Source of the DNA: Trogon surrucura
Taxonomy: Eukaryota; Chordata; Aves; Trogoniformes; Trogonidae
DNA: 64,000 nt
Assembly: GCA_020746105.1 (NCBI GenBank)
Contig: CM036657.1
Coordinates: forward strand, 3,185,652-3,249,651
Direction of reading: 5' to 3'
Below, piece by piece: positions 29,601 to 59,186 of the stretch; position 1 is the first letter of the stretch, and each line of letters begins with the position of its first letter. The position numbers and the translations under genes were made by a program. Below the pieces are notes generated by a model. The model saw only the letters and a list, made by a program, of their open reading frames with translations, was not told the DNA's origin and ran no database searches.

Positions 29601-29611
29601 GAGATCCATAG
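29601..29611 (-). repeat. Satellite inversion junction
   Basis: CCCAAAATCA joins GAGATCCATAG: the reverse complement of CTATGGATCTC follows the forward body with about 100 bp missing. The reverse complement of the same junction occurs at 58,605-58,625. Confidence 0.85.
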
Positions 29612-30010
29612 TGTCACGTCCCACCCAGGAGAGAGTGACCAGTGACTTTCAGATTCGTAATACACCACCAGCGTGGACAATGGTGAGACAGGTCTCAAGG
29701 CCCATTCACAAACATTTATTAATTTATCCCAATCTATAGATCGGACTCACGACAATTGACTGAAATTCATAAGCACGGTAGGGCAGACATTATAACAAAA
29801 ATCCAAAAAAAAAAGCGGAAAAGCAATGAACTTACAACAACTTAATAATAATAACAAGGAATAATAAAGGGCATCTAAACACAATATTAAGTCAGACAAT
29901 ATCACACTTAACCATCACAAGAAGGAAATTTAGGCATAAAACCAAATATACAGCACAATAGTCCTTGCAGTACTTAACGAGGAAAAGGGAAAAAGAGAAA
30001 GAGAGAGAGT

Positions 30011-30043
<33 letters not shown>

Positions 30044-30473
30044 CACTGGTCCGGGTTCATGCAATGGTCCAGCCAAAGCAGAGTTGAGGATGCACCCATC
30101 GTTGTCTTCTTTCTTCTTTTTCTTATTGTTGAAATCTTTGCTTTACCTTCCCTCAATTTATACACCATTTTCTACGTGAGGACCTGCAGAATGCCAAGTA
30201 GGGGCATTCTTTACAGTAATTATCATTAATATGTGCGAATGCCCTACCTCCTTGAAAGATATGCTAGAGAAAAGGTCATCCTGCATCCTCAAGATTTCTT
30301 AATTCCTACACATGTTTGTCCCCAGGGCTGTTTGATGCATTTGTAGCCTTATCAGATCGCCCCTCTACAATATTCCATAGGACCAAAAACTGGTTTTGTT
30401 TTCTGACCATGCTGGTGGATTGTAAAAATGACAAGGAATATTTAAGGCAAAATCCACGAATCAGTCCGCTACA
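29612..30473 (-). mobile_element. LTR-C solo LTR, complete (862 bp)
   Basis: On the minus strand it starts TGTAGCGGACTGATTCGTGG and ends CCTGGGTGGGACGTGACA. Flanked by a perfect CATAG duplication (29,607-29,611 and 30,474-30,478). It carries a TATAAATTG box (antisense at about 30,165), a GA/CT microsatellite (about 29,999-30,045) and an AATAAATG signal. It inserted in satellite. Confidence 0.93.
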
Positions 30474-30968
30474 CATAGAGCCTGGGGCTGCAGAGACACT
30501 TGGGTTGGACAAGGCATTCCAAGGGGAGCACGGCACTGCAACAACAGTACTCCACCAACATGTTTCTGATTTTGGGATACCCATGACCATAGAGACATCA
30601 GGCTGAACCCTGAGGTACAGGATTCTACTTAGGGTTTGGTTTCAATGATCCATAGAGCTTTTTGCTGCAGAGACATGTGGGCTGGACAAGGCATTCCAAG
30701 GGGAGCACACCACTGCACCAACAATGCTCCACCAATACCTTTCTGATTTTGGGGCAGTCATTGCCATAGAGACGTCATGCTTAACCCTTAGTTGCAGGGT
30801 CCTGGTTATGGTTTGTGTTCAGTGATCCATAGAACCTTTTGCTGCAGAGGCACTTGGTCTGGATAAGGCATTCCAAGGGGAGCGCAGCACTGCACCAGCA
30901 GTGCTCTAGCCACATCTTTCTGATTTTAGTACACCCATGGCCATAGAGAATTCATCCTGAACCCAGAG
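30474..30968 (-). repeat. 177-bp satellite, inverted, about 2.8 monomers
   Basis: CATAG monomer marks at 30,474, 30,651 and 30,828, spaced exactly 177 bp. It ends at CCCAGAG, the ERV4 target site. Confidence 0.93.
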
Positions 30969-31424
30969 TGCGGGGAGCCTCATGCTGGAGAAACAGGAAC
31001 TGCAGGCAACGACTCAATATGAGCACGAACAAACAGATCCAACTTTATTCTTTTCTACCAAACATTTATACTCTTTCAACTCTCAGTACATTACACTTTC
31101 TGTTATCTCATTGGTTATTACTACATTCTATCTACTACAACAGTTACTGATTGGTGCGGTTACATCTAATATGCCTACACTTAAACTGTCAGGACGTTGC
31201 ACCTCCAGATGTCCAGTGTCTTTGTTCTCAGTGACAAACAAGAAAGATTTGTAACCTTGTTTTGCTTCAAGGAAGCAAAACAAGGGCAGACTGACCTTAA
31301 TGATCCGTGACTTGTTTGCTTCAGGGAGGCACATCATCAGAAGGCTGACCTTGAGGATCAAAGAATCTAAGGTATTTTCCCAAGCGCAGGCTACAATGTT
31401 ATAGCGCCAGCAAGGCCCGCAACA
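30969..31424 (-). mobile_element. ERV4 3' LTR
   Basis: 456 bp; minus strand TGTTGCGGGCCTTGC to GAGGCTCCCCGCA. It differs from the 5' copy only near 31,025 (A/G) and 31,201 (C/T) by my base-by-base reading. Confidence 0.95.
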
Positions 31425-32605
31425 TCTCCCCCTCTTTTATCAAACACGGCATCAGCTAGCCTTCTGATCTGAGCAGAGAAGCATTGGATGATGCAAGGTC
31501 CCATACAAGCTACAATCAATACGATAACAATAATAATTATAACCATCTTAATTCCATCTTTAAGCCAGGCAGGAATTCCAAAAGACAAAAGCCAGTCATC
31601 AAAAGGATTATGACCTACAGTAATTTTTTGTGTATGTTGTTGAAGCCAATGTAGTTGTTTGTGAATCGAGTCACTATGATCCGACAGGTCAAAACAGCAC
31701 ATTCCTTGAATTTCCTCACACCCTTTACCTTGAGCTAGTAATAGAAAATCAATGGCAGCACGATTTCGAAGGACTACTTGACGCAGACTGCTCATATCTT
31801 GGGCTAGTTGGGATATTACTTGAGTAGTGACATTAGCTTGTTTTGCTGTCCAACATGCCAGTCTTTGAATTTGTTGTAAAGCATGAGAAGTGCCAATGCC
31901 AGGAATTAAGGAAGCAAAAACCTTGGCTGTGGGACCCCATAGCTCCACATCGTCATTACAGTCAGGAGGCAATAGAGAAATACTTCTTTTGGTTCGGGTA
32001 TGATGCAAGGTTGCAAAAAATTCTTTAGATGGAACAAGTAAGGCTAAATGACCAAGGTAACAAGGACCACCGTGAGCAAAGCTAGGAATTCCTTGCCAAG
32101 CACGGTCGCCACAGATCAAGTAAATGTGGGGCGGTAACGAAAGAGGAGAGGAGATGTTTAAATATAAATGTCCAGGTCCCCAACCATAAGGGCGAGATCC
32201 ATAATACTCAGAATGATTAAAATTTTTATGGGGAGTCAGCCAATTTTGTTTTGGAGATAGTGACAAATTCCAGGAACCAAAGTAAATACACCCATACCCA
32301 TTTGGTTTTCGACTGTTTAGTAAATTCAGCTCTTGGGGATCCCAAGGAAGTGGCACTGATAAATTCTTAACAATCATGGCAAGACAGTGGTTGCTATTAC
32401 TTGCTTTTCTACAGTCACCCAATTGAAAAGGGGACACAGGTGTTCCAATTAAGCATGTCTTAAAGGGATCAGTTGCTGATGTTAAATGTAAGCAAAAGGC
32501 ATCATTGCCAGTCTGACTTGCCCATCGTACCCAAAAATTCGTCATAGGGAAGTCTGCTAATGTCCAATTAATCCATAAACAGGTGAGGAACATCAGGCGG
32601 ATCAT
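31391..32605 (-). CDS. env: ERV4 envelope glycoprotein, intact frame
   Basis: 404 codons without a stop. Signal peptide at residues 1-18 (MFLTCLWINWTLA). Surface subunit of about 190 residues with NX(S/T) sites at NLS, NLS, NHS and NIS. Furin site RTKR at 204-207. An internal fusion loop lies between Cys216 and Cys251, NRAAIDFLLLAQGKG at 281-295, an intact CX6CC at Cys296-303-304, and a membrane span at about 354-373. The internal fusion loop and the sequence around CX6CC resemble alpharetrovirus TM. SU is shorter than the roughly 340 residues of alpharetroviral SU, so it may carry a deletion. It would act in receptor binding and fusion. The frame ends inside the 3' LTR. Expression would need splicing from the leader; whether it is expressed or fusogenic cannot be seen here. 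Confidence 0.93.
   Translation of the reverse strand: MIRLMFLTCLWINWTLADFPMTNFWVRWASQTGNDAFCLHLTSATDPFKTCLIGTPVSPFQLGDCRKASNSNHCLAMIVKNLSVPLPWDPQELNLLNSRKPNGYGCIYFGSWNLSLSPKQNWLTPHKNFNHSEYYGSRPYGWGPGHLYLNISSPLSLPPHIYLICGDRAWQGIPSFAHGGPCYLGHLALLVPSKEFFATLHHTRTKRSISLLPPDCNDDVELWGPTAKVFASLIPGIGTSHALQQIQRLACWTAKQANVTTQVISQLAQDMSSLRQVVLRNRAAIDFLLLAQGKGCEEIQGMCCFDLSDHSDSIHKQLHWLQQHTQKITVGHNPFDDWLLSFGIPAWLKDGIKMVIIIIVIVLIVACMGPCIIQCFSAQIRRLADAVFDKRGGDVAGLAGAITL
31425..31443 (-). promoter_or_regulatory. ERV4 polypurine tract
   Basis: Minus strand AAAAGAGGGGGAGA directly precedes the 3' LTR start. It lies inside the end of the env frame. Confidence 0.85.
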
Positions 32606-32961
32606 TATGAATTTTGCAATTCTTCAAATACTAAGACTGTACAATATCAGTATGTTTGACAATAATTAATTAGTTTATAATAGAATTGATTTGTGTCTAT
32701 AACAAGGCTAATTCCTTCTCTTAAGAACAACTCTGGATAGTTTAACTAAACACGAAGTTATAACAGGGACAAACCTATACCTACAAACTAAACAACCTAA
32801 AAACCACTGTCTATTATTATAAGAAAAAAAAAACCAGTTTCCCACACCCTCCACAGTAAAAATGTCCTTGGAGCCACACTGTGCAGCCACAAGGTGGCCA
32901 GTGTAGTCCACACACTTTAGTAATTGTAAGCTTCTCAACTTCTCTCCGAAATGCTACAGTA
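32606..32961 (-). other. ERV4 region between second integrase end and env
   Basis: Minus strand; a 76-codon frame at 32,938-32,708 (CVDYTGHLVAAQCGSKDIF) with no family I recognise. The rest is AT-rich leader to env; a splice acceptor should lie here, but I cannot place it. Confidence 0.45.
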
Positions 32962-33462
32962 TTAGGTACCAGTGGTAATGATATCCGTAGTTCTTGTTCC
33001 AGTATCGAGCGAAGAGACCGTAGACGTAGTTCCCTGCGCCACCTCGTCCTGAATTGGGCTGCTATGTCCTTCAGTATATTTCGCTATCCACGGTTTCACC
33101 CACTTCGCGGGTACCCACGATGATTTGTCACCTAGAAAAACACAAGCATAACCCCGCCCCCAAGTTAATAATCTCACCAGTCCAAACCAGTTTTGTGTAG
33201 CGGGGTCCCAAATTTGTACAGAAACGTCGTGTGTTAATAAGGATCCTTTCCTTTGATGAAGTTGAATGGGCGTCAGTTGTTGTTTAGTATCTACCACATC
33301 GATGTACGTCTTCCAATTGTGAACATATACCGCTTTCATAACGATTTCCTGAGGTGTGAGGGTATGTTCTCCCTCTTTTCGTAACGCTCGGAATAAGCGT
33401 TTAAGGTCCTGATGTTTTCGTTCGACAATGGCTTGTCCAGTGCTGTTATAAGGGACACCCAA
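32962..33462 (-). pseudogene. pol: ERV4 second integrase end (alpha-like lineage)
   Basis: 166 codons starting MGVPYNSTGQAIVERKHQDL, that is from just before the third catalytic acidic residue (E in VERKH) to the C-terminal end: PATQNWFGLVRLLTWGRGYA, then a Ser/Thr-rich tail. It differs from the integrase at 34,225-35,208 (GQSIVERAHLMLKRM), so the element carries two integrase ends from two lineages. This one flanks the alpha-type env and so probably belongs with it. No catalytic domain upstream. Confidence 0.82.
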
Positions 33463-33474
33463 TTGGTGTTGAAC

Positions 33475-33778
33475 ACCCCTTTATCTTAAATCATCCAGAC
33501 CCGCAGTCGCTGGGGAGCCCCTGTTGCAGCGAGGTTTCTGGAGAACCCTCCCGACAATTGGGAAGTCCTACGCAGTGCGTCCACCCGTAGGTGAGGTTTC
33601 CGAAGTCGCTGCAAGAGGGTCCAGCATTTATACTCTTAAATAAACAACCTTACATAACGTTGAATGCGGGAACATCTGGTGTTGTTTGCTCCGTTGAATT
33701 CTTCTCACAGCTTGGCCAGGGCTGAAAGAAGAATGCAAGGGAGTCTCCCTATCAATTTTGGTCCTTAATCACACACTT
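33475..33778 (-). mobile_element. LTR-like piece inside ERV4 (tentative)
   Basis: About 300 bp with no coding signal between an env remnant and the second integrase end. On the minus strand it has GAGTATAAATGCTGGAC (TATA-like) followed by GC-rich sequence with TTCCCAATTGTCGGGAGGG. It may be part of an LTR left at a recombination joint. No copy elsewhere in the window. Confidence 0.4.
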
Positions 33779-34224
33779 CTAACAAAGCAAAAGGCAGCTA
33801 GTTTCCCCCGCCTTGCTTTCAGCTAAAAAAAGATCACTCTGCTGGTTAGTACCATAAACCTTAACACCTATTATGTGGCTTTGATTAGACAGTCTTACAC
33901 AACCAATATAAACTTCATTGTTAGTCACATAAAGAGAATACATATCAGTACAACGGGTAACATTGAAAACAGTTACATCTTCCCATAATTGCTCTGCTAT
34001 CAGCCGTAACCATCTTCTCCCAGTCCAATCCATGTCGTCGTTGGTAATCGGTACCTCAGGGTCCCATCATGTCACTGGGCGAAACAAAGGGATTCAACAG
34101 GCAGGCCCAGTGCACGGTCGTGTTGCTACTACGCTGTTGAAGTAACAGGATGCTGCACAGCCACATCATGCGGGATAGGAACCAAATCATGGTCATTAAA
34201 TGGCTTAATTCGTTTCGCTGGCAG
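33779..34224 (-). pseudogene. env: ERV4 betaretrovirus-like env leader remnant
   Basis: Overlaps and follows the first integrase. One frame has a hydrophobic leader (MIWFLSRMMWLCSILLL) and WACLLNPFV; another, 34,033-33,779, encodes MDWTGRRWLRLIAEQLWE and TNNEVYIGCVRL. It has no cleavage site or TM part. By position it is the 5' end of the env that belonged to the first integrase; it is cut at about 33,778. Confidence 0.55.
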
Positions 34225-35231
34225 TCAATAAGGTCCTGTGGATAAAGAAACACAGCCATAACCTCTTCCCCACGTCAACAGAGGTACCGGACCTTTCCAT
34301 TCATTAGTATGAATGTCCGTATACAGTACATTAGGCTTTGGCAAGTCTTTCTGTTTTTCTTTTTGAGATCTCAGATGAGGAGTTAACATATCAAAACTGG
34401 ATATATTCAGAAAATTTAACACATACGTTGCTTTAGACAACTTCTCGTGTGGAGACATTCCGACAACAGTGCTTTTCTGTTTCTGTAACATTCTTTTCAG
34501 CATGAGATGTGCTCTTTCCACAATGCTCTGTCCCGTTGGTGAATAAGGTATCCCCATCACATGAGATATTCCCCATTCCTGTAAAAATACTTTAAAATTG
34601 TTAGAAACATAAGCTGGACCATTATCCGTTTTTATCTGTGATGGCACTCTTAATGTGGCAATAGCACGTAGCAAATGCAGTCGAACATCTCTAAACTTTT
34701 CACCACTGTGCGCTGTGGCAACAATAAAAGATGAGAAGGTATCTACAGTAACATGCACATATTTCAGTTTACCAAATTCAACTATATGCGTAACATCCAT
34801 TTGCCATACGTCATTGGGAGCAAGACCACGAGGGACTGCTGTTATATTAGAGTTCAGTGGTGTGACCGCTTGACAATCTGGACATGACAAAATAACATCT
34901 TGAGCTTGTCGAGATGTTATGTTAAACTGTTTGGATAAAGCCTTGCTAGTTTGATGATAAAAAGCATGCAAAAGTCTAGCCTGTCCTAATACATCAGGAA
35001 CAGCAGTCATAGCAGCCAGAGAATCAGCCCGAGCATTACCTTCGACTAACGGGCCAGGTAGATTAGAATGAGAACGAGTATGTGTCACAAAGTATTGGTG
35101 TATGCGATTACTACAAAGTAAGCCTAATTTCTGAAACAACATAAAAAGAACACGATTAGAAACATGTTTTAAAAAGGTAAACTCAATTCTGCACAAAAGG
35201 CCATACACATAATGGGAATCAGCAACAATAT
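34225..35231 (-). pseudogene. pol: ERV4 RNase H end and first integrase
   Basis: 327 open codons (35,208-34,225). The first part is the RNase H C-terminal end (HTRSHSNLPGPLVEGNARAD). Integrase follows: zinc region with HAFYHQ and CPDC (all four HHCC residues), and a core with WQMDVTHI, IKTDNGPAY and GQSIVERAH, so all three acidic residues are intact. The C-terminal end has TWGRGYGCVSL. It resembles the ERV1 integrase. It is fused at about 35,231 to capsid because RT, protease and nucleocapsid (about 2.7 kb, judged against ERV1) are deleted. The integrase domain itself looks intact but has no normal Gag-Pol frame to be made from. Confidence 0.88.
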
Positions 35232-36300
35232 TTACAGAACAGTAGCTGTTTTGTTAGTGCATCTCAGCATCTCCAGAATTCTTTTACAGCCCGCGTTAGC
35301 ATTCTCCACAGCAAGCTGCAGTAATAATGCATCTGCTGCCGCTGGTACATCTACCTGTCTTTCAATAGCTCCTTGTAATTGATCAATAAATTGAAGGTAG
35401 GGTTCATCGTTAGCTTGTCTGATAGTGCCAAAAGGTTTGCTTGATTTTTTCATGTCAGGAATCTTTTTAAAAGCTTTTGTTGCTAATTGTGCAGCGAGCT
35501 GTAAAAGTTCTGTAGTAAGATGAGCTTGAAGCTGTGGATTCGCAAACTGACCCTCCCCCAACAGCTGATCCAGGTTAATTGGAGCATTATTATTTTGAGC
35601 TACTGTAGCATTGGATATACATAATTCCCTGTATTCTACATACCAAATTGTATATTGGCTGGGTGTTAAAATCAACTTAAATACCACCTTCCAATCATGA
35701 GGAACCATAAGAAAAGCCTCTTTCATTGTTTCTATTAAATTTTCAGTATAGGATGATTGAATACCCGATTCAGCAACCGTACGCCGCAACTCTTTCAGCA
35801 TGATATAAGAAATCTGTTGACGGTCTGGTGCCTGAGTCCCGTCCGGCCGCGTATGCATGACTACTGGCATAGCTTTAACTACCTCAGGAAAAAAGTCAGT
35901 GTTAAGGAAACCATGCTCATCACGATCGGTTAAAATATCCGTCAGGGGAAATCTGAACCCTAGTAATAGAAGACAGTGCTGGACAAACCTGTGGAGAAGA
36001 TAAGGGAGGGGGTGCATAGGGTGGGGGTCGAGAATTGAGTGGAACAAGAGAGTTCATCTGACCCTTATTTTGACACAGCTGTGAAACAGATTTTGACAGC
36101 CCCTTTCCTTTTTCCGAAAGTCCCGAAAAAACGTCCTGAGCAGTAGGTGCAGATGCCACCATGGCTCTATTCGGCGTGAGCGGAGGATAAAGGTTGGGTT
36201 CTGCCTCGGGGTCGTCAGGACCAACATCAAAGGAACTGTCATCCTCCTCTGGATCTCTTTCAGGGGTTCATCCTGATCTTCCTTCTTTTCTCCCCCCCCC
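35232..36300 (-). pseudogene. gag: ERV4 gag, proline-rich region and capsid
   Basis: The minus strand from 36,300 reads acidic sequence (DDPEAEPNLYPPLTPN) and a PPPYAPPP late-domain motif in one frame (to 35,920). It shifts to another frame that holds capsid to 35,232 (HDWKVVFKLILTPSQYTIWY; major-homology-like NDEPYLQFIDQLQGAI; LAVENANAGCKRIL). It ends at the deletion joint before the zinc knuckles. It is related to ERV1 capsid, not to the gag at 36,652-37,866. Confidence 0.85.
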
Positions 36301-36303
36301 ACC

Positions 36304-36326
36304 TTTTTTTTTTTTTTTTTTTTTTT
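36304..36326. repeat. Poly(T) tract, 23 bases
   Basis: T run at the 3' side (minus strand) of the LTR-A fragment inside ERV4. On the minus strand it reads as poly(A). Confidence 0.9.
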
Positions 36327-36595
36327 ATTAGCTCAAGTATTACTTCAGTCACTCTGTTATCACACAGGGAGAGCAGAATTTCCCAGGTCTGTTTTGATCA
36401 TACTCTCCCGTTCACTCCCATGCACATCTGGTGTACAAGAAGCGTCTTATCTTCATTCTCACGGACAAGCTCTCAACACGAGCTGTACCTGGCTGGTCAG
36501 GGTCTCTTTTCATAATTAGGAAGCAAGAGTTATGCACTTGTTTAGAAAAGAGCTCAGCTCAAGGACGAAAGTCTTAATTCTGCAACGCAGTGCAG

Positions 36596-36598
<3 letters not shown>
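36327..36598 (-). mobile_element. LTR-A fragment inside ERV4
   Basis: Matches the middle and start of the ERV1 5' LTR: ATCACTCTGTTATCACACAGG (shared in 20-base windows), CCCATGCACATCTGGTGTACA, CACTTGTTTAGAAAAGAGCT and TTCTGCAACGCAGT. Both LTR ends are missing. It is bounded on both sides by poly(T) tracts. Confidence 0.85.

Positions 36599-36601
<3 letters not shown>

Positions 36602-36640
<39 letters not shown>
36602..36640. repeat. Poly(T) tract, 39 bases
   Basis: Uninterrupted T run at the 5' side (minus strand) of the LTR-A fragment, next to the end of the tandem-matrix gag. Confidence 0.9.
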
Positions 36641-36651
36641 CTACGACCCAG

Positions 36652-37866
36652 TCAGGACGAGCAGGGAGTTTCTTCCCTTGCCTTCCTCCTCTCCTGCCCC
36701 CCCTCCAACGCCTCGATCGCCGCCGCAGCAACTCTCTTTTCTGCTTGCATGACTTCTAGAGTGCGCATCACGGCCTTCCAAACTGTTCCTAGTTCTTCCG
36801 CTTCTTTTCCTCCCTCTAGAGTACAGTCCCACAAAAAGTCTCCTACTTCACGCCATTCCGTGGAACTAAAGATTAATGGCGGGTTGTTCATTTTCTCCCG
36901 TTTCCGAGCCCATGGGGCTAATACGTCTCGCTCCTTTACTTTTTCTCCTCTCTTAGAGAGTATACTAAGGAGGCGAGTTTTTTTAGGTGGATTACGCTTA
37001 AGATATGCCTGAATGTCACTTATCTCAGTTTCTGTTAGTCGGGGTTCTCCGTTCGATTCTAAATAGTGATTAGCTGACTCACAGTCCCATTCCTCGTTTT
37101 TTAACATGTTAATCACCCAAACACGCCGATTACGTCGAGGACCATAAGATTCAGCCTTATCAAATTGCTTTTCAAAATTTTTGAGTCCATCTACTATAGC
37201 TTGATGAGCTTTACGGTATTTTTCTCGAATTATGTTAGACTGCGCCCCTTTATCCAATCGCTGCATTTCTTCTAACAGCTTGGTCATAACTTCTGTCTGT
37301 TTCTGAATCAACATTTCTAGGGATTCATCTACTTCCATATCTTCAGGTAACGGCACTGTCGCCGGATCAATAGTCCCAGGGGGAGCTGAGGGAGGTGGGG
37401 GCAGAGTGGGTTCGGGTGGCTCCCATGATGGGATGAGATCATTATAAGGACCTCGGCGCGCCGGTGCGGCGACCGGGAGAGGGCTATCTTGTGAGTTTTT
37501 TACTGAGGAATCTGAAGACGGAGTAGCCAATTTCTCAGCAGCAACTGTATACAGTGTTTTAGCAGCAACTTCTACCTCAGCATCTGCTCCCATGCGTTCT
37601 ATCAGTAATCGTAACTGGCGATATGTCGGGGCTATTGCTTTCGCTTCCTTATTCCCTGTCTGTACTGCTTCCCAAATATCTTGCCCCACCTCCTTCCACA
37701 CAGCATCTTTAAAAACGTCAATTGAGTCATTTAAATAACCACGGCGCCGTGCCCAATGTAATAAGTTTGTCAGCAGGGTTCGATCCAGCGATTCCCCTGC
37801 TCTTTGAGCCACACATAAAATGGCTTCCACGGTCGCCTTTTCAATCGCTGATGCAGCGCTTCCCAT
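36652..37866 (-). pseudogene. gag: ERV4 gag with two matrix-like domains
   Basis: 404 codons from ATG at 37,866 (MGSAASAIEK, myristoylation-type glycine); an upstream extension to 37,983 lies in the leader and is unlikely. Domain 1 (residues 1-95) is matrix-like: LLHWARRRGYLND, WKEVGQDIWEAV, APTYRQLRLLIERM. A proline-rich linker (PPEPTLPPPPSAPPG) and a charged, coiled-coil-like part follow. Domain 2 (about 305-385) repeats the matrix pattern: LLSILSKRGEKVKERD, WREVGDFLWDC, LGTVWKAVMRTLEVM, closest in this window to ERV2 matrix. The frame ends at 36,652, then poly(A). No capsid follows in frame. Two matrix domains in one Gag is unusual; whether original or a recombination product is unknown. 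Confidence 0.78.
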
Positions 37867-37901
37867 CCCGTGCACAAAAACAGCTCGTATTGTGAGCTCC
37901 G

Positions 37902-37908
37902 ACTCACC
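37902..37908 (-). promoter_or_regulatory. ERV4 candidate splice donor
   Basis: Minus strand CCG|GTGAGT in the leader just upstream of the gag start. A good consensus donor that could serve env splicing. Confidence 0.5.
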
Positions 37909-38003
37909 GGTCGACAGTGGCCACTCGCGTCTCTCTCGAACGCCCGGTCGCAACCGCCACGGGTTTCTTACGTTCCTCTTCATCGCACGGCAGCTCCCGC
38001 AGG

Positions 38004-38021
38004 ATCACGTCGGGGTCACCA
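38004..38021 (-). promoter_or_regulatory. ERV4 primer binding site, tRNA-Trp type
   Basis: Minus strand TGGTGACCCCGACGTGAT three bases inside the LTR. From known viruses this is the tRNA-Trp primer site used by alpharetroviruses, unlike the Lys-type site of ERV1. Confidence 0.85.
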
Positions 38022-38024
38022 AGA

Positions 38025-38480
38025 TGCGGGGAGCCTCATGCTGGAGAAACAGGAACTGCAGGCAACGACTCAATATGAGCGCGAACAAACAGATCCAACT
38101 TTATTCTTTTCTACCAAACATTTATACTCTTTCAACTCTCAGTACATTACACTTTCTGTTATCTCATTGGTTATTACTACATTCTATCTACTACAACAGT
38201 TACTGATTGGTGCGGTTACATCTAATATGCCTACACTTAAACTGTCAGGACGTTGCATCTCCAGATGTCCAGTGTCTTTGTTCTCAGTGACAAACAAGAA
38301 AGATTTGTAACCTTGTTTTGCTTCAAGGAAGCAAAACAAGGGCAGACTGACCTTAATGATCCGTGACTTGTTTGCTTCAGGGAGGCACATCATCAGAAGG
38401 CTGACCTTGAGGATCAAAGAATCTAAGGTATTTTCCCAAGCGCAGGCTACAATGTTATAGCGCCAGCAAGGCCCGCAACA
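38025..38480 (-). mobile_element. ERV4 5' LTR
   Basis: 456 bp, same limits and nearly the same sequence as 30,969-31,424. Followed by CAGAG, the right target duplication, and inverted satellite. Confidence 0.95.
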
Positions 38481-38703: not shown

Positions 38704-39038
38704 TGTCATGTCCCACCTAGGAGAGAGGGACAAGTGACTTTCAGATTCGTAATACACCACCAGCGTGGACAATGGTGAGAGAAGTCTCAAGGCCCATACA
38801 CAAACATTTATTAATTTATCACAATCTGTAGATCGGACTCACGACAGTTGACTCAAATTTATAAGCACGGTAGGTAGGCATTATAACAAAAATCCAAAAA
38901 AAGGCGACATAAGCAATGAACTTACAACATCTTAATAGTAATCACAAGGAATAATAGAGGACATCTAAACAGAATATTAAGTCAGACAATATCACACTTA
39001 ACCATCACAAGAAAGAAATTTAGGCATAGAACCAAATA
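38704..39038 (-). mobile_element. LTR-C, part cut by ERV5
   Basis: TGTCATGTCCCACCTAGG to AACCAAATA: the 3' 335 bp of an LTR-C, at the CATAG satellite site. The rest of the LTR, apart from a short piece at 44,514-44,567, is lost. Confidence 0.88.
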
Positions 39039-39587: not shown

Positions 39588-39590
39588 ATT

Positions 39591-39608
39591 TGGCACCCCA
39601 GATGGGAC
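39591..39608 (+). promoter_or_regulatory. ERV5 primer binding site candidate
   Basis: TGGCACCCCAGATGGGAC, three bases after the LTR end. The right position and a TGG start; the tRNA is not identified. Confidence 0.55.
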
Positions 39609-44513: not shown

Positions 44514-44567
44514 TTCCTTACAAGAAATGTTTAAGGCAAAATCCACGGATCAGTCCGCTACAGACAA
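44514..44567 (-). mobile_element. LTR-C 5' end fragment
   Basis: AAATGTTTAAGGCAAAATCC to CAGTCCGCTACA: on the minus strand the first 54 bp of LTR-C (TGTAGCGGACTG). The next satellite bases, GACAACC, place it at the CTGTC site of the monomer. Confidence 0.85.
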
Positions 44568-45073: not shown

Positions 45074-45149
45074 TAGCTGCTTAGGTTTTGGAGATCCGTA
45101 AAGCTTAGAGTTGCAGAGACACGATGGCTGGACAAGGCATTTGAAGCAG
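45074..45149 (-). repeat. 177-bp satellite fragment, inverted
   Basis: TTTGGAGATCCGTAAAGC to GGACAAGGCATTTGAAGC, a partial monomer between LTR-H and LTR-C. Confidence 0.82.
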
Positions 45150-45833
45150 GTAGGGGCATTCTTTCCAATAATTCTCATTAACATGTGCGAATGCCCTATC
45201 TCATTGAAAGAGGTGCTAGAGATAAAGCCATCCTGCCTCACGAAGATTTCCTCATCCCTAAACACATTTGTCACCAGGGCTGTTTGACGCATTTGTAGTC
45301 TTATCATGTAGAGGAATTTCTTGTGGAGCAGAGGCACGGTGTCCCTTTAAAGGTGTGGACAACCCAGCTTAGGCCTAAACAAAGGCTCTGTCCTTGAAGC
45401 TGCCTTGGGACACGGGGAGGAGGAGGTTTTATCTGTTTTGTGAGAGCTTTGCGAGATGCTTGGTTGCAGGTGTTGGCCCCGGGGGGAGAAGGGGGGGCGA
45501 GAGCCGCTTGCATAGTTGAATGGCACTACCCAATAAAACGCTGGCATGTGTAAACCTGTAACTGACCAACTCTGTTAAGGGGCAGGTGCAGGGACACTGC
45601 TTGACTGTATATATTGAGCTGTCCGGAGAAGTAAAGGGAGGACGACTTGTAGCCATATTAGTGTGATGGTCGTTAACTTGGCCGGCTCTCCGAAGGGACC
45701 CTTTCTAGACTATCAGATCGCACCTCTACAACATTCCATGGGCCCAAAAAATGGTTTTGTTTTCTGACCATGCTGGGGGGTTTTAAAAATGACCAGAAAT
45801 ATTTAGGGCAAAATCCACGAATCAGTCCGCTCT
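45150..45833 (-). mobile_element. LTR-C fragment split by LTR-B copy 5
   Basis: Minus-strand LTR-C matching 30,195-30,470 of the complete copy. It is interrupted at 45,307-45,709 by LTR-B and ends at CAGTCCGCT, two or three bases short of the LTR-C start. It meets a plus-strand LTR-C head to head at 45,834. Confidence 0.85.
45307..45709 (+). mobile_element. LTR-B solo LTR, copy 5
   Basis: 403 bp, TGTAGAGGAATTTCTTGTGG to CCCTTTCTAGA. Flanks TTATCA (45,301-45,306) and CTATCA (45,710-45,715): a 6-bp duplication with one change, within LTR-C. Confidence 0.9.
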
Positions 45834-46053
45834 CGCAAAATCCTTTCAAAGAGGGATTCACACATGTTAACGAGAATTACTGGAAAAAAATGACCCTTTC
45901 CTGGCATTCTGCAGGTCCGCACATAGAAAATGGTGTATAAATTGAGGCAAGGAAAAGCAAAGATTTCAACAAGAAGTAAAAGAAGAAGGAAGACAATGAC
46001 AGGTGCACCCTGAACTCTACTTTGCCTGGACCATCCCAGGAACCTGGACCGGT

Positions 46054-46054
<1 letters not shown>

Positions 46055-46106
<52 letters not shown>
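46055..46106. repeat. (CT)n microsatellite in LTR-C
   Basis: About 26 CT units, the longest of the CT/GA runs that every full LTR-C carries downstream of its TATA-like box. Confidence 0.9.
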
Positions 46107-46113
<7 letters not shown>

Positions 46114-46208
46114 TTTCCCATTTCCTTGATAAGTAATGCAAGGTCTATCATACTGTTTCTTTGGTGTTATGCCTAAATTTCTTCCTTGTGATGGTTAAGT
46201 GTGACATT

Positions 46209-46919
46209 ACACAGAATCACAAAATCACAGAATGTCAGGGATTGGAAGGGACCTCGAAAGATCATCAAGTCCAATCCCCCTGCCAGAGCAGGAACACCTA
46301 GATTATGCTACACAGGAACGTGTCCAGGCAGGTCTTGAATGTCTCCAGAGAAGGAGACTCCACAACCTCCCTGGGCAGCCTGTTCCAGTGTTCCGTCACC
46401 CTCACTGAGAAGAAGTTTCTTCTCGAGTTTAAGTGGAACCTCTTATGCTCCAGTTTCAGCCCATTACCCCTTGTCCTATCATTGGTTGTCACCGAGAAGA
46501 GCCTGGCTCCATCCTCGTGACACTCACCCTTGATATATTTGTAAACATTAATGAGGTCACCCCTCAGTCTCCTCTTCTCCAAACTAAAGAGCCCCAGCTC
46601 CCTCAGTCTTTTCTCATAAGGGAGATGCTCCACTCCCTTAATCATCCTAGTTGCCCTGTGCTGGACTCTCTCCAGCAGTTCCCTGTCTTTCTTGAACTGA
46701 GGGGCCCAGAACTGGACACAATATTCCAGATGCGGCCTCACCAGGGCAGAGTAGAGGGGCAGGAAGACCTCTCTTGACCTACTAATCACCCCCCTTCTAA
46801 TACACCCCAGGATGCCATTGACCTTCTTGGCCACAAGGTCACAGTGCTGGCTCATGGTCATCCTGCTGTCCACCAAGACTCCCAGGTCCCTTTCCTCTAT
46901 ACTGCTCTCTAATAAGTCA
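46209..46919 (-). mobile_element. CR1-4, LINE in LTR-C
   Basis: About 710 bp of CR1 3' end on the minus strand, with frame 46,876-46,298 ([13 protein letters not shown] to the end of RT), open for 192 codons. Tail AGAATCACAAAATCACAGAATG. 5'-truncated. Nearly the same sequence as CR1-1 and CR1-3. Confidence 0.93.
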
Positions 46920-47207
46920 TATTGTCTGACTTAATATTGTGTTTAGATGTCCTTTATTATCCCTTGTTCTTATTATTAAGTTGTTGTAAGTTCATTGCTT
47001 ATTTAGCCTTTTCCTGGATTTTGTTCTATTGTCTTCCCTATCTTGCTTTTAAATTATAGTCAATTGTCATGAGTCCGATCTATAGATTGTGATAAATTAA
47101 TAAATGTTTGTGTATGGGTCTTGAAAATTGTATCACCATTGTCCATGCCGATGGTTTATTATGAATCCAAAAGTCACTTGTCCCTCTCTCCTGGGTCGGA
47201 CATGACA

Positions 47208-48525: not shown

Positions 48526-49524
48526 TGTAGCGGACTGATCCGTGAATTTTGCCTTAAACATTTCTTGTCAGTTTTACAACCCCCCAGCATGGTCAGAAAA
48601 CAAAACCAGTTTAGGGAAGGTTGTAGAGGGGCGATCTGATAAGGCTACAAATGCCTCAAATAGCCCTTGGGCAGAATTTGTACAGGGCTTAGGAAATCTT
48701 GTGGAGGCAGGATGGCCTAATATCTAGCATATCTTTCAAGGAGATAGGGCATTCACACATGTTCATGAGAATTACTGGAAAGAATGCCCCCACCTGGCTT
48801 TCTGCATGTCCCCATGTAGAAAATGGTGTATAAATTGAAGCAAAAGACAGAAGAAAGCGAACTAAAGAAGCATGTAACCTGAGATGAAGACACCAAGAAG
48901 AAAAGTGCAGGAGAAGAAGAAAAGATGACATCATCCTTGAACCCTTGATGGTGTCAAATGCAGGAACCAGGACCGGTGATCTCTGTCTCTCTCTGTGTCC
49001 TCTCCCACCACACCTCTCTCTCTTCCCCCCCCCTCCTCTTTCCTTTTCTCCTCTCTTACTAAGTAATACAAGACCTATCACACTGCTTCCTTAGTTTATA
49101 CTTACTTTCTGTCTTGTTACCAGAAGTATAATGTTCCCTATTAGAAATTATGTCTTTTTTCCTTGTTAAGTCCCTCTCTCTCTTTTTCCCTTTTCCTCAA
49201 TAAATATTGCAAGGCTTATCATACTGTTTATTTAGTTCTATGCCTATTTTTCTTTCGTGTGATGGTGAAAAATGTGTTTAGATGTCCTTTATTATTCCTT
49301 GTTATTACCATTAAATTATTGTACTTCATTGCTTATATAACCTTTTCCTGGATTTTTGTTATATTGTCTGCCCTATCGTGCTTTTAAATTAGAGTCAATA
49401 GTCGTGAGTCCGATCTATATGTTGTGATAAATTAATAAATGTTTGTGTATAGGCCTTCAGACCTGTCTCACTGTTGCCCACGCCGAAAAGTTACTTGCCC
49501 CCTTCTCGTGGGTGGGACGTGACA
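48526..49524 (+). mobile_element. LTR-C solo LTR, long form (999 bp)
   Basis: TGTAGCGGACTGATCCGTG to GGTGGGACGTGACA, flanked by a perfect CTGTC duplication (48,521-48,525 and 49,525-49,529). It is longer than other copies because the segment around CTTTTCCTC..AAGTAAT..CTATCA..ACTG is present twice (about 49,040-49,095 and 49,185-49,230). Confidence 0.92.
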
Positions 49525-49997
49525 CTGTCCCAAAATCAGAAAGGTGTGGCTGGAGCACTGTTGGTGCATTGCAGTGCTCCCCTTGGAATGCCTTGCCCAG
49601 ACCAAGTGCCTCTGCAGCAAAACACTCTGTGGATCACTGAACCGAAACCCTAACCAGGACCCTGCACCTCAGGGTTCAACCTGATGTCATAATGGCCATG
49701 GGTGTCCCAAAATCAGGAAGGGGTGGATGGAGCACTGTTTTTGGAATGCCGTGCTCCCCTTGGAATGCCTTGTCCAACCCAAGTGTCTCTGCAGCTCCAG
49801 GCTTAATGCATCTCTGAAAACGAACCCTAATCAGGACACTGTACCTCAGGGTTTAGCCTGATGTCTCAATGGCCATGGCTGTCCCAAAATCAGAAAGGTG
49901 TGGATGGAGCACTGTTGGTGCAGTGCTGTGCTCCCCTTGGAATGCCTTGTCTAGCCCAAGTGTCTCTGCAGCTCCAGACTCTACGGATCTATGAACC
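49525..49997 (+). repeat. 177-bp satellite array, about 2.7 monomers
   Basis: CTGTCCCAAAATCAG onward with cores ACCGAAACCCTAACC and CGAACCCTAATC. It ends GGATCTATGAACC, exactly as at 56,058. Confidence 0.92.
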
Positions 49998-50064
49998 TCT
50001 CCTGGATTTAGCTAAAAACCCAGTCATGTTTAGTGATTTCTACTTCCAATTTAGTGTATTATTA
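49998..50064 (+). mobile_element. LTR-I 5' fragment
   Basis: TCTCCTGGATTTAGCTAAAA to AATTTAGTGTATT, the first 60 bp or so of LTR-I at the same satellite position (after GATCTATGAACC) as the complete copy at 56,059. It then passes into LTR-C. Confidence 0.78.
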
Positions 50065-50266
50065 GTTATTATTATTAAGTTGTTGTAAGTTCATTGCTTA
50101 TTTTGCCTTTTCCTGGATGTTTCTTCTAGTGTCTGACCTATCGTGCTTTTAAATTAGAGTCGATTGTCGTTATTCCGATCTATACATTGTGTTAAATTAA
50201 TAAATGTTTGTGTATGGGTCTTGAGACTTGTCTCACCGTTTTCCACGCCGTTGGTGTATTATGAAT
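50065..50266 (+). mobile_element. LTR-C 3' part before CR1-6
   Basis: TTATTATTATTAAGTTGTTG to GGTGTATTATGAAT. It continues after CR1-6 at 53,425-53,468. Confidence 0.85.
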
Positions 50267-53200: not shown

Positions 53201-53424
53201 TGTTCCATAAAAATATTAGGAAAAACTTTTTCACAGTGAGGGTGACAGAGCACTGGCACAGGCTGCCCAGGGAGGTTGTGGAATCTCCTTCTCTGGAGAC
53301 ATTCAAAACTCGCCTGGACGCTTTCCGATGCGGTTTGCTGTAGGTGGTCCTGCTCTGGCAGGGGTGTTGGACTAGATGATCTTTGAGGTCCCTTCCCACC
53401 TCTAACATTCTGTGATTCTGTGCG
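50267..53424 (+). mobile_element. CR1-6, 3.2-kb LINE, largest CR1 in window
   Basis: Covers 3' UTR, RT, the endonuclease and about 330 bp upstream of ORF2. The endonuclease starts at 50,601 (MGNKQGELE, AITETWWDSSHNW) and runs, after a stop at 50,785, to 51,623 (VLMGDFNYPDVCW, LSCSDHEIVE). RT pieces: 51,739-52,401 ([25 protein letters not shown]) and 52,467-53,057 ([24 protein letters not shown]). Stops at about 50,785, 51,623 and 52,399, and a frameshift near 52,455. Tail CTAACATTCTGTGATTCTGTG. No ORF1. Inserted in an LTR-C. Confidence 0.93.
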
Positions 53425-53468
53425 AAACTAAAAGTCACTTGTCCCCCACTCATGGCTGGGATTTGAAA
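53425..53468 (+). mobile_element. LTR-C 3' end after CR1-6
   Basis: AAGTCACTTGTCCCCCACTC to GATTTGAAA, the last 44 bp of an LTR-C with a decayed end, followed by CTGTC of the satellite. Confidence 0.82.
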
Positions 53469-56058
53469 CTGTCCCAAGATCAGAAAGTTGTGGATGGAGC
53501 GCTGTTGGTGCAGTGACGTGCTCCCCTTGGAATGTCTTGTCCAGCCCAAGTGTCTCTGCAGCTCCAGGCTCCATGGGTCTCTCAAAGCTAAACCTAATCA
53601 GGACTCTGCACCATAGGATTCAGCCTCATGTCTCCATAGCCATGGCTCTCTCAAATTCAGAAAGGTGTGGGTGGAGCACTGTCAGTGCAGTGCCAGGCTC
53701 CCCTTGGAATGCATGGTCCAGCTCAAGTGTCTCTGCATCTTCAGACTCCGTGGAACTCTGAACCGCAACCAGGACCCTGCACGTCTGGATTCATCCTGAT
53801 GTCATAATGGCCATGGCTGTCCCAAAATCAGAAAGGTGTGTGTGAAGCACGTTTGGTGTAGTGCCGTGCTCCCCTTGGAATGCCTTGTCCAGCCCAAGTC
53901 TCTCTGCAGCTCCAGGCTCTATAGAACTCTGAAACCTAACCCCAACCAGAAACCTGCAGGTCCGGGTTCAACCTGATGTGTGTTTTCCCATGAGTGTCCC
54001 AATATCACAGATGTGTGGGTGGAGCACTGTTGGTGCAGTGCTGTGCTCTCCTTCGAATGCATTCTTGAGCCCATGTGTCTGTACAGCTCCAGGCTCTATG
54101 GATCTCGGAACCCTAACCCTAACCAGGACCCTGCACCTCAGGGTTCAACCTGTAATCGTAATGGTCATGGGTGTCCCAAAATCAGAAAGGTGTGGGTGGA
54201 GCACTGTTGGTGCAGTGCCGTGCTCCCCTTGGAATGCCTTGTCCAGCCCAAGTGTCTCTGCATCTCTAGGCTGTATGGATCTCTGAATACTAAACATAAC
54301 CAGGACCCTGCACCTCGGGGTTCAGCCTGATGTCATAATGGCCATGGCTGTCCCAAAATCAGAAAGGTGTGAGTGGAGCACTGTTGGTGCAGTGCCCTGC
54401 TCCCCTTGGAATGCCTTGTCCAGCCCAAGTGTGTCTGCAGCAAAAAGCTCTATGGATCCCTGAACCCTAACCCTAACCATGACCTTGCACCTCAGGGTTC
54501 AGCCTGATATCGTAATGGCCATGGGTGTCCCAAAATGAGAAAGGTGTGGGTGGAGCACTCTTTGTGCAGGGCTGTGCTCCCCTTGGAATGCCTTGTCCAG
54601 CCCAAGTGTGTCTGCAGCAAAAAGCTCTATGGATCCCTGAACCCTAACCCTAACCATGACCTTGCACCTCAGGGTTCAGCCTGATATCGTAATGGCCATG
54701 GGTGTCCCAAAATGAGAAAGGTGTGGGTGGAGCATTGTTGGTGCAGTGCCGTGCTCCCCTTGGAATGCCTTGTCCAACCCAAGTGTCTCTGCAGCTCCAG
54801 TCTCTAGGGATATCTGAACTCTAACCCTAACCAGGGGCCAGCACCTCTTGGTTCATCGTGATATCATAATGGCCATCGGTGTCCCAAAATCAGAAAGGTG
54901 CTGGTGGAGCACTGTTGGTGCAGTGCCGTGCTCCCCTTGGAATGCCTTGTCCACACGAAGTGTCTCTGCAGCTCCAGTCTCTACGGATATCTGAACTCTA
55001 ACCCTAACCAGGGCCCTGCACCTCAGGATTCTGCCTGATATCGTAATGGCCATGGCTGTCCCAAAATCAGGAAGGTGTGGGTGGAGTACTCTTGGTGCAG
55101 TGCCGTGCTCCCCTTGGAATGCCTCGTCCAGCCCAAGTGTCTCTGCAACAAAAGGCTCTATGGATCTCGGAACCCTAACCCTAAACAAGGCCCTGCACCT
55201 CAGGGTTCAGCCTGTAATCATAGTGGTCATGGGTGTCCCAAAATCAGAAAGCTGTGAGTGGAGCACTGTTGGTGCAGTGCCGTGCTCCCCTTGGAACACC
55301 TTGTCCAGCCCAAGTGTCTCTGCTGCTCCAGTCTCTATGGATATCTGAACCCTAACCCTAACCAGGGCCCTGCACCTCAGGGTTCATCCTGAATTCTCTA
55401 TGGACATGAGTGTCCCAAAATCAGAAAGCTGTGGGTGGAGCATTGTTGCTGCAGTGCCATGTTCCCCTTGGAATGCCTTGTCCACACCAAGTGTCCCTGA
55501 AGCAAAAGGCTCTATGGATCTCTGCACCCTAACCCTAACCAGGGATGTGCACCTCAGGGTTCAGCCTTATGTCTCTATGCCATGAGTGTCCCAAAATCAG
55601 AAAGCTGTTGGTGGAGCGCTGTTGGTGCAGTGCCGTGGTCCCCATAGAATGCCTTGTCCAGCCCAAGTGTCTCTGCAGTAAAAGGCTCTATGGATCTCTG
55701 AACCCTAACCCTAACCAGGGCCCTGCACCTCTGGGTTCATCCCGATGTCTGTATGGCGATGGGTGTCCCAAAACCAGAAAGGTGTGGGTGGAGCACTGTT
55801 GCTGTAATGGTGTGCTCCCCTTAGAATGCCTTGTCCAACCCAAGTGTCTCTGCAGCAAAAGGCTCTATGGATCTCTGAATCCGAACCCTAACCAGGACCC
55901 TGCACTTCATAGTTCAACCTGATGTCTCTGTGGCCATGAGTGTCCCAAAATCAGAAAGGTGTGGGTAGAGCACTGTTGGTACAGTGCCGTGCTCCCCTTG
56001 GAATGCCTTGTCCAGCCCAAGTGTCTCTGCAGCTCCAGGCTCTACGGATCTATGAACC
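53469..56058 (+). repeat. Main 177-bp satellite array, about 14.6 monomers
   Basis: Monomer marks (the GATCTCTG position) at 53,576, 53,753, 53,924, 54,101, 54,278, 54,455, 54,632, 54,809, 54,986, 55,163, 55,340, 55,517, 55,693, 55,870 and 56,047. Spacing is 177 except 171 once and 176 once. Each unit holds a telomere-like core (best form CCCTAACCCTAACC), CCTGCACCTCAGGGTTCA, a GCCATG block, CCCAAAATCAGAAAGGTGTG, GAGCACTGTTGGTGCAGTGC and CTTGGAATGCCTTGTCCAGC. Two unit types alternate loosely: GCAGCTCCAG and GCAGCAAAAGG near the end. No gene in it. Confidence 0.97.
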
Positions 56059-56865
56059 TGTCCCGGGTTTTGCTAAAAACCCAGTCCTGTTAGTGATTTT
56101 TACTTTCCAGTTTAGTGTCTTCTAAAAGAGTTCATGTTCTGAAGTTCGCAGCGTTTTTCCAGACAGTGTGTGCTACTGGCTGTAATAACACCTGATGTTT
56201 ACAGTTACTGCCTGGGACTGGGATGAAGAAAGGCTCTTGCTTATACTATTCATATAGTGACCAAGGCAACTGCTGGCTCTTGTGTGCCACGCTGGGGGTG
56301 CTGGGTGGTAAAAGGGGGCACAAGGAAGTAAAAGGTTGCACCTCCGGGGGGTAATAGACAGGACAGGTGACCAACGAGAGTATTCCATCCCATATACATC
56401 ACATTTAGTATAAATTGAGCGATCACAAGTGTTTCGTCCCTTTTTTCGCCCTTTTTCACCCTTTTCACCCTTTTTCTACAATGAGTGGTGTCGAGAGAGG
56501 ACTCCATCTGACCTCCTGCTTTTGATCTGGATCCTGAGTTCCCGAATCCAGCTCCCTGTATGCAGCTCCCTGCTGCCGCTGAGCCTGGGGTTTCCCCAGT
56601 GCCTCCTGGTCTGCAGCACCAGTGGTGATTGCTATCGAGAGAGTGAGTTGGGTTTGATATCAGGCTACTATCTATAGTTGTATATAGTTCTTTTATCTTT
56701 TGACCATTATTTCCATTATTTGCTTTAAAGTTGTTCTAGGTTTTTCTCTAACCCATAAGTCTCTCTGCCTCATTCCCTTTTCTCTTTCCATTTGGGTGGG
56801 GGGGGAAGAGGGGGTTAGAGAGCATCTGTTTGCATTAGTGTCCGGCCCAGCCCTTACTCGCGACA
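56059..56865 (+). mobile_element. LTR-I solo LTR, plus strand (807 bp)
   Basis: TGTCCCGGGTTTTGC to CTTACTCGCGACA. A TATAAATTG-like box lies at about 56,411. It forms an inverted pair with 56,902-57,711. There is no matching target duplication on its two sides (GAACC versus GTGTG), so one flank has been exchanged. Confidence 0.88.
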
Positions 56866-56901
56866 GTGTGGTGTCGTACCGTGCTCTCCTTGGAATGCCT
56901 T
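56866..56901 (+). repeat. 36-bp satellite spacer between inverted LTR-I copies
   Basis: GTGTGGTGTCGTACCGTGCT to GGAATGCCTT, satellite body ending in GCCTT, the target duplication of the second LTR-I. Confidence 0.85.
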
Positions 56902-57711
56902 TGTCGCGGGTTAGGGCTGGGCCGGCCACTAACATGGACATACGCTCTCTAACCCCCTCTTCCCCCCCCCAAAAGGGAAGAGAAAAGGGAATGAGGCAGA
57001 GAGACTTACGGATGAGAGAAGAGAAAAACTAGAACAGCTTTAATGAAAATAATAGAAAATAATAGTAAAAAGATAAAAGTAAAGAACTATATACAACTAT
57101 AGATAGTAGCCCGATATCAAACCCGACTCCCTCCCCCGGTAGAAATCACCACTGGTGCTGCAGACCAGGAGGCACTGGGGAAACCCCAGGCTCAGCGGCG
57201 GCGGGGAGCTGGATACAGGGAGCTGGATTCGGGAACTCAGGATCCGGATCAAAAGCAGGAGGTCAGATGGAGTCCTCTCTGGACACCGGCCATTGCAGAA
57301 AGGAAGGGTGAAAAGACCGAAAAGGGGACGAAACTCTCATTATCATTCAATTTATACTAAATATGACGTATATGGGATGGAATACTCTCGCTGGTCACCT
57401 GCCCTGTCTATTACCCCCCGGAGGTGCAACCTTTTACTTCCTTGTGCCCCCTTTTACCACCCAGCACCCCCAGCGTGGCACACAAGAGCCAGCAGTGGCC
57501 TTGGTCACTATAGGAATAAGTATAAGCAAGACCCTTTCTGCATACCAGTCCCAGGCAGTAACTGTAAACATCAGGTGTTATCACTGCCAGTAGCACACAC
57601 TGTCTGCAAAAACACGCTACTGACTTGAGAAAGTGCAGCCTTTTAGAAGACACTAAACTGGAAAGTAAAAATCACTTAAAAAGGACTGGGTTTTTAGCTA
57701 AACCCAGGACA
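56902..57711 (-). mobile_element. LTR-I solo LTR, minus strand (810 bp)
   Basis: Reverse complement of the LTR-I family: plus strand TGTCGCGGGTTAGGGC to GCTAAACCCAGGACA. Flanked by a perfect GCCTT duplication (56,897-56,901 and 57,712-57,716), so it is an independent insertion. Confidence 0.92.
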
Positions 57712-57753
57712 GCCTTGTGCAGCCCAAGTGTCTCTGCACCTCCAGGCTCTATG
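57712..57753 (+). repeat. 177-bp satellite fragment
   Basis: GCCTTGTGCAGCCCAAGTG to GGCTCTATG, ending in the CTATG LTR-C site. Confidence 0.9.
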
Positions 57754-58604
57754 TATAGCGGACTGATTCGTGGATTTTGCCTTAAAAATTTCTGGTCATT
57801 TGTACAACCCCCCAGCATGGTCAGAAAACAAAACCAGTTTTTGGTCCTATGGAATGTTGTAGAGGGGCGATCTGAAAAGGCTACAAATGCCTCAGACAGC
57901 CCTGGCGACGAATATGTGTAGGGGTTAGGAAATCTTGGGGAGGCTGGATGGCCTTATCTCTAGCATTGCTTTCAAGGAGATAGGGCATTCGCACATGTTA
58001 TTGAGAATTACTGGAAAGAAAGCCCCCTACCTGGAATTCTGCAGGTTCCCATGTAGAAAATGGTGTATAAATTGAGGCAAGGTAAAGCAAAGATTTCAAC
58101 AAGAAGAAAAAGAAGAAAGAAGACAACGACGGGTGCATCTTGAACTCTGCTTTGGCTGGAACATAACAAGAATGTCGACCGGTGATCTCTCTCTCTGTCT
58201 CTCTCTCTCTCTCTGTCTTTCTCTCTTTTTTTCCCTTTTCCTCACGAAGTATTGCAAGGACTGTCATACTGTTTATTTGGTTTTATGCCTAAATTTCCTT
58301 CTTGTGATGGTTAAGTGTGATATTGTCTGACTTAATATTGTGTTTAGATGTCCTTTATTATCCCTTGTTATTATTATTATGTTCTTATTATTATGTTGCT
58401 GTAAGTTCATTGCTTATTTGGCCTTTTCCTGGATTTTTGACCTATTGTCTGCTCTATCTTGCTTTTAGAGTTTGATATATAGATTGTAATAAATTAATAA
58501 ATGATTGTGTATGGGTCTTGAGACTTGTCTCACCATTGTCCAAGCCCGTGGTGTATTACCAATCTGAAAGTAACTTGTCACTCTCTCCTGGGTAGGACAT
58601 GACA
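57754..58604 (+). mobile_element. LTR-C solo LTR, complete (851 bp)
   Basis: TATAGCGGACTGATTCGTGG to GGTAGGACATGACA, with CTATG on both sides (57,749-57,753; 58,605-58,609). TATAAATTG at about 58,065, a CT microsatellite at about 58,187-58,225, and AATAAATG at about 58,495. Confidence 0.93.
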
Positions 58605-59186
58605 CTATGGATCTCTGATTTTGGGACAGCCATGGCCATAGAGACATCAGGCTGGACCCTGAGGTGCAGGGTCCAGGTTAGGGTTACGGTTCAGAGATCC
58701 ATAGAGCCTTTTGCTGCAGAGACACTTGGGCTGGACAAGGCATTCCAAGGGGAGCACGGCACTGCAAAACAGTATTCCAGCCACAAACTTTCTGATGTGG
58801 GCAGAGACATACCCATTATGAGTTTCGTCTGGACCCTGAGATGCAGAGTTCTGGTTAGGTTTAGGTTTGAGAGATCCATAGCGCCTGGAGCTGCAGAGAG
58901 ACTTTGACTGGAAAAGACTTTCCAAGGGGAGCACGGCAGTGCATCAACAGTGCTCCACCCACACCTTTCTGATGCTGGGAGAGCCATAACCATTATTACA
59001 TCAGACTTAACCCTGAGATGCAGGGTCCTGGTTAGGATTAGAGTTCAGAGATCCATAGAGACTGGAGCTGCAGAGACACTTTGACTCGAAAAGGCATTCC
59101 AAGGGGAGCACGGTACTGCAGCATTAGTGTTCCACCCACAACTTTCTGATTTTGGGATACCCATGACCATTATAACATCAGAGAGG
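58605..59186 (-). repeat. 177-bp satellite with inversion junction, then inverted array
   Basis: Begins with 13 bases of forward satellite (CTATGGATCTCTG), then switches to inverted body (ATTTTGGGACAGCC). CATAG monomer marks follow at about 58,699, 58,877 and 59,054. It ends at CATCAGAG where CR1-5 enters. Confidence 0.92.

Follow-up and report, generated by a model that had tools for sequence, protein, structure and literature searches.

A retroviral LTR at two fixed positions of a 177-bp satellite: probable spread from two founding insertions

Why does one long terminal repeat, here called LTR-C, lie again and again at the same two places of a satellite monomer? The first-pass annotation had read this pattern as two founding insertions that were later amplified with the satellite. 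We have followed up this reading in the window, by which we mean the whole 64-kb stretch of DNA analysed, and the evidence below comes from a small number of copies in one stretch. As argued below, two founding insertions followed by spread within the array by recombination is the best reading of the data, and we consider it probable.

The 177-bp satellite makes up about 6.8 kb of the window (6787 bases assigned) and is split by retroviral and LINE sequence. Its phases are counted over the monomer, with phase 1 at the start of CTATG. The median identity of monomer pairs within the window is 79-84%. With the stretch 29,612-30,473 as the query and reference, the LTR-C copies of the window were collected, and they are listed in Table 1, where positions of the element are those of the reference. 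The copies C1, C2 and C6 have satellite on both sides with no internal region adjoining, C1 and C6 have TGT...ACA ends, and a 5-bp target duplication is present in all three of them, as in solo LTRs. No internal region of LTR-C (gag-pol) was found in the 64-kb window. The class of the retrovirus (I, II or III) does not follow from a 5-bp duplication by itself. The body and the 5' end of C7 are separated by an insertion of about 3.2 kb. It is noted that C5 (45147-47207) is a fold-back of LTR-C, with positions 584-859 inverted onto 632-1, and that the satellite strand flips there too.

Table 1. Positions of the LTR-C copies and of the satellite features in the window
Feature	Positions	Strand	Remarks
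C8, LTR-C 5' end	1..10	-	truncated at window edge; adjoins CTGTG (CTATG site, one change)
C3, LTR-C positions ~222-862	16318..16920	-	3' end adjoins CTATG; 5' part absent; CR1-like sequence from 16942
C1, full solo LTR-C (TGT...ACA)	29612..30473	+	flanked by CATAG (CTATG reversed) on each side
C4, LTR-C positions 1-337	38704..39038	+	adjoins CATAG; broken by later elements
C4b, LTR-C 3' end, positions ~817-862	44517..44562	+	adjoins GACAA (CTGTC site; one change from GACAG)
C5, LTR-C positions 1-632	46916-47207 + 45853-46208	-	CR1-like insertion between; 5' end adjoins GTATG (one change)
C5 inverted piece, LTR-C positions 584-859	45147-45306 + 45702-45831		LTR-B between pieces
C6, full, longer solo LTR-C (TGT...ACA)	48526..49524	-	flanked by CTGTC on each side
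C7 body, LTR-C positions 42-252	50057..50266	-	far side joined to fragment of element X
C7 5' end, LTR-C positions 1-46	53423..53468	-	adjoins CTGTC
C2, full solo LTR-C	57754..58604	-	flanked by CTATG on each side
Satellite inversion breakpoint CCCAAAATCAGAGATCCATAG	29591..29611	+	21 bases; ends at C1
Breakpoint CCCAAAATCAGAGATCCATAG beside C2	58605..58625	-	exact second copy
Satellite/X junction CTACGGATCTATGAACC	49981..49997	+	identical to 56042-56058
Longest unbroken satellite stretch	53469..56058	+	~14.7 monomers, without LTR-C

The nine junctions that the first-pass annotation had placed beside CTATG or CTGTC are all real. Six copies (C8, C3, C1, C4, C5 and C2) are at the CTATG site, phase 1-5, and three (C4b, C6 and C7) are at the CTGTC site, phase 76-80, with one-base variants of the target (CTGTG, GTATG and GACAA) in three of the nine. 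Only the coordinate 44,567 given for one of them needs correction, since the 5-base site ends there, whereas the LTR itself ends at 44,562. All nine copies are antisense to the satellite, and the target duplication is seen in each of the three copies with two ends, CTATG in C1 and C2 and CTGTC in C6. If nine insertions were distributed uniformly, the chance that they fall on at most two of the 177 positions would be about 5e-14, so that uniform independent insertion is rejected, while with random orientation the agreement within the sites would be expected once in 128 (hand arithmetic). The claim that the positions are not scattered is also upheld by the other elements of the window, whose satellite ends are spread over phases 10/14, 15/21, 17, 34/50, 52/55, 72/21, 89/122, 113/117, 141/145 and 172 (two figures denote the two sides), with three of these elements within phases 10-21, so that the spread of this control is not perfectly even. 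There are also 36 uninterrupted CTATG and 35 uninterrupted CTGTC sites within the window.

The strongest new fact for spread within the array is the private breakpoint shared by C1 and C2. Searching the window for CCCAAAATCAGAGATCCATAG with up to three mismatches gives two matches, both exact, and they lie only beside these two copies. The alignment of C1 with C2 runs through the inverted satellite, the breakpoint, the LTR and the satellite of the other side, with the 12 bases from 29,600 up to the LTR being identical. The identity is 733/836 (87.7%) in the LTR, 212/248 in the inverted arm and 38/42 on the other side. Beyond the breakpoint the two arms are mutual nearest neighbours (84/91, 92.3%), and over 86 bases only 3 of 593 monomer pairs are as high. 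The divergence of the LTRs agrees with that of the arms (87.7% versus 92.3%, p 0.23). Because the breakpoint is common to both copies, their independent insertion would need a prior duplication of the breakpoint and then two hits by LTR-C at the same base and in the same orientation. We draw nothing from the strand flips of the satellite as such, of which there are three in the window, all at LTR-C copies, because C1 and C2 represent one event by descent and LTR-C occupies about half of the gaps.

The relationships among the LTRs also follow the two sites. The pairwise identity is 86-93% within C1-C5 and 78-84% between C6 and C1-C5, while C7 is 82-84% identical to four of C1-C5 and 90% identical to C3, the latter over 31 bases; within the CTGTC group it is 95.7% (44/46) for C4b and C6 and 82.8% for C6 and C7. 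The excess of within-site over between-site identity is the best of 56 labellings, and it holds with positions 40-230 omitted, where the CTGTC group is represented at length by C6 only. In neighbour joining with two chosen sets of six rows each, C6 and C7 are united in 938/1000 and C4b and C6 in 987/1000. In the maximum-likelihood tree of seven single-piece rows the pairing of C6 with C7b is not recovered (10% of 200 bootstraps), and it is not rejected either (p-AU 0.213); a second maximum-likelihood tree omits C4b as too short.

Within the CTATG group the history is more complicated. Based on the whole LTR, C1 is united with C4 (support 95/95), and a p-AU of 0.029 rejects its pairing with C2; this is also the case for positions 40-230 (99/97 for C1 with C4; p-AU 0.007 for C1 with C2). 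Outside positions 40-230, by contrast, neither pairing is rejected (p-AU 0.536 for C1 with C2 and 0.154 for C1 with C4). Correspondingly, C1 and C2 are alike at 139/146 sites in positions 1-39 and 231-337 and at 140/171 in positions 40-230 (Fisher p 0.0002), and C1 shares seven derived states with C4, at 59-204, and two with C2, at 25 and 313. The best contrast block of C1 and C2 is at positions 131-210, where 19/60 sites mismatch against 31/314 in the rest of the first 400, with 10/2000 shuffles being as strong. Similar blocks are present in C2-C4 (5/2000 shuffles), C1-C5 (8) and C4-C5 (37), such that four of the nine pairs scanned have fewer than 50/2000 shuffles as strong and the other five have none of such blocks. 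A run test over the complete set of sites at which C1 matches either C2 or C4 gave no signal (1691/10000 shuffles; 4896/10000 for the longest run). It should be noted that gaps and A-runs occur in the alignment around 180-200, and part of the contrast may thus be alignment noise. The LTR is nevertheless seen to be a mosaic, with a conflict that is limited to a block near 131-210, which is consistent with gene conversion. C1 and C4 are neighbours, about four monomers apart, and conversion between them or between their ancestors would explain the conflict.

The first-pass annotation had predicted, for composite amplification, that the trees of LTR and flanking satellite agree. The two histories partly disagree: C1 and C2 are united by both the breakpoint and the arm, but the whole LTR places C1 with C4, and the flanks of C8, C5 and C4 resemble one another only as much as randomly taken monomers do. 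The downstream flanks of the last three are mutually 80-81% alike, which is the median of 524 monomer pairs, and that of C6 and C7 (81/97) is likewise at the median of monomer pairs. The upstream flank of C1 and C3 (85/97) is moderately high, with 126/594 monomer pairs as high. For C4b and C6 the upstream flank is 57/70, with 210/595 monomer pairs as high, and an A at 49 is found in just these two of 38 rows; here the LTRs, with their 44/46, are more alike than the flank with 63/80 (p 0.01; this pair is one of five that were compared). Hence, apart from C1 and C2, the flanks show no co-duplication; reshuffling of the array would erase such a signal and may have done so here. Trees of LTR and flank give no clean test, owing to the mosaic nature of the LTR and to a general likeness among flanks that is too high for resolution. 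We consider that the disagreement between LTR and flank is best explained by gene conversion or unequal exchange.

From these data the following course of events may be envisaged. LTR-C would have been the terminal repeat of an endogenous retrovirus, now extinct, which would have inserted twice, at CTATG and at CTGTC of the monomer, both times antisense, with the insertions then reduced to solo LTRs. The satellite bearing the LTR would have been copied by recombination within the array, i.e., by segmental or inverted duplication, unequal exchange and gene conversion. By this process the exact place and orientation of the LTR would be kept, while the flanking monomers and blocks internal to the LTR would be reshuffled among the copies, and many copies would subsequently have been disrupted by younger proviruses and CR1-like elements. 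That each site was hit by a single integration, and which type of recombination operated, we infer from the pattern. The earlier claim of two founding insertions amplified with the satellite is thus sustained in part, by the identity of the base, the orientation in 9/9, the target duplications in 3/3, the breakpoint of C1 and C2 and the sorting of LTR identity by site, but the histories of LTR and flank partly disagree.

An alternative is that the integrase of LTR-C, perhaps with nucleosomes positioned on the 177-bp monomer, had an exact target preference and repeatedly used the same two bases. Such a preference accounts for exact positions despite unrelated flanks and for the disagreement between LTR and breakpoint, and the monomer, which is of nucleosome length, has its two LTR-C sites at a distance of 75 bp; moreover, LTR elements have been reported to favour palindromes and nucleosome-occupied DNA (PMC6911290). 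It is at odds, however, with the single orientation in 9/9, the lack of one-base scatter at either site, the 36 and 35 empty sites nearby, the shared breakpoint, which would need an earlier duplication plus two hits at the same base, and the sorting of LTR lineages by site. Integration machinery with two-fold symmetry should yield both orientations. We therefore regard target preference as unlikely, and less likely than the spread of two founding insertions. Its most specific form, a site-locked vertebrate satellite retrovirus that is base-exact at two positions 75 bp apart, in one orientation, and with later copies still arriving, appears improbable.

The amplification could also have proceeded as a regular composite higher-order repeat, as the first-pass annotation had supposed, with a long unit of satellite and LTR-C being multiplied head to tail. 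The constant position and orientation would be expected then, and the neighbours C8-C3 and C1-C4 are indeed 3 to 4 monomers apart when later insertions are discounted. The satellite between neighbouring LTR-C copies, however, amounts to 3.2, 2.1, 4.1, 1.4, 5.3, 2.7 and 15.1 monomers, and the flanking monomers mismatch in order. As neither a constant unit length nor an ordered match of flanking monomers was found in this window, a composite repeat with a regular unit is rejected here, and we give this explanation very little weight. Least credible of all is an artefact of assembly, in which collapsed or misjoined repeats would have produced the repeated junctions. Satellites and nested repeats are hard to assemble and the breakpoint is present twice in opposite orientation, but the LTR-C copies differ by 8-20%, far beyond sequencing error, they bear different later insertions, and the window contains no N.

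Returning to the spread of two founding insertions, it is useful to compare it with known systems. In the bovine 1.711b satellite, a unit carrying an inserted sequence forms a regular long repeat; the likeness is that an insertion was amplified together with the satellite, and the difference is that the spacing of LTR-C is irregular instead of forming a regular long composite. In humans, the HERV-K insertions K111 and K222 lie in the centromeric repeats CER:D22Z3 and pCER:D22Z8 and were expanded by recombination and conversion (PMC4425911). The K111 copies keep one target duplication, GAATTC, the two lineages have exchanged sequence and undergone gene conversion with each other, and there are recombinants with mixed flanks (PMC4425911). 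There (PMC4425911), and probably here too, a tandem repeat received two retroviral insertions that were multiplied along with it, and a shared target site is also what is found for LTR-C, with six copies at CTATG and three at CTGTC. By contrast, K111 and K222 are largely proviruses that are about 99% alike and occur across many chromosomes (PMC4425911), whereas LTR-C is represented by old solo LTRs with 78-96% identity, known from one 64-kb stretch. A further parallel is with the centromere cores of maize, for which gene conversion is described (PMC2834711): conversion-type exchange in repeat-rich centromeric DNA is common to both, except that the maize case is of a plant and measured in populations (PMC2834711), whereas here conversion is inferred from a mosaic block. 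LTR-C is probably a further instance of the process described for human K111 and K222. No comparable case in this lineage was present among the matches listed in the literature, and none of the papers listed bore the term "177 bp". If our reading is true, old solo LTRs would be natural tags that record duplication, inversion and sequence exchange of a satellite array, and the counts and ages of LTRs in satellite DNA would reflect recombination rather than retroviral activity.

Duplication of this kind may be general in this array, as is suggested by a second repeated junction. The junction of the satellite with element X is present twice (49981-50056 and 56042-56120), the final 17 satellite bases of both carry the same private changes, and the monomers preceding the two junctions are 154/177 alike, with 31/434 pairs as high. 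Element X itself is LTR-like, with two inverted copies of about 800 bp each (56058-57712) that are 86.7% alike and lie around a 33-bp scrap of satellite; by eye, its right copy is flanked by GCCTT on each side.

Regarding the other contents of the window, a Pfam scan of 10 of the 59 listed reading frames gave matches in nine of them, to retroviral gag, pol, integrase and envelope domains and to endonuclease and reverse transcriptase of LINE type, the LINE being presumably CR1. Avian_gp85 is matched by two of the ten scanned frames, one of which exceeds the curated cut-off, and from this we take the host to be probably a bird. A young-looking provirus at 30961-38480 lies inside the satellite, with terminal repeats of 464 bp that are 99.1% alike and an envelope frame that matches TLV_coat and Avian_gp85. 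Another provirus, at 7757-16143, lies between satellite phases 14 and 10, and its flanks CTCTGA and TTCTGA resemble a 6-bp target duplication. The satellite pattern had no match in viral contigs; it had one match in genome contigs, and the LTR pattern had one in viral contigs, but each of these comprises just 20-21 identical bases and is regarded as due to chance. The satellite monomer includes a short telomere-like stretch, CCCTAACCCTAACC. Finally, the neighbouring monomers at 54450-54803 carry identical changes over the first 95 bases in both, which may be a sign of a recent local duplication.
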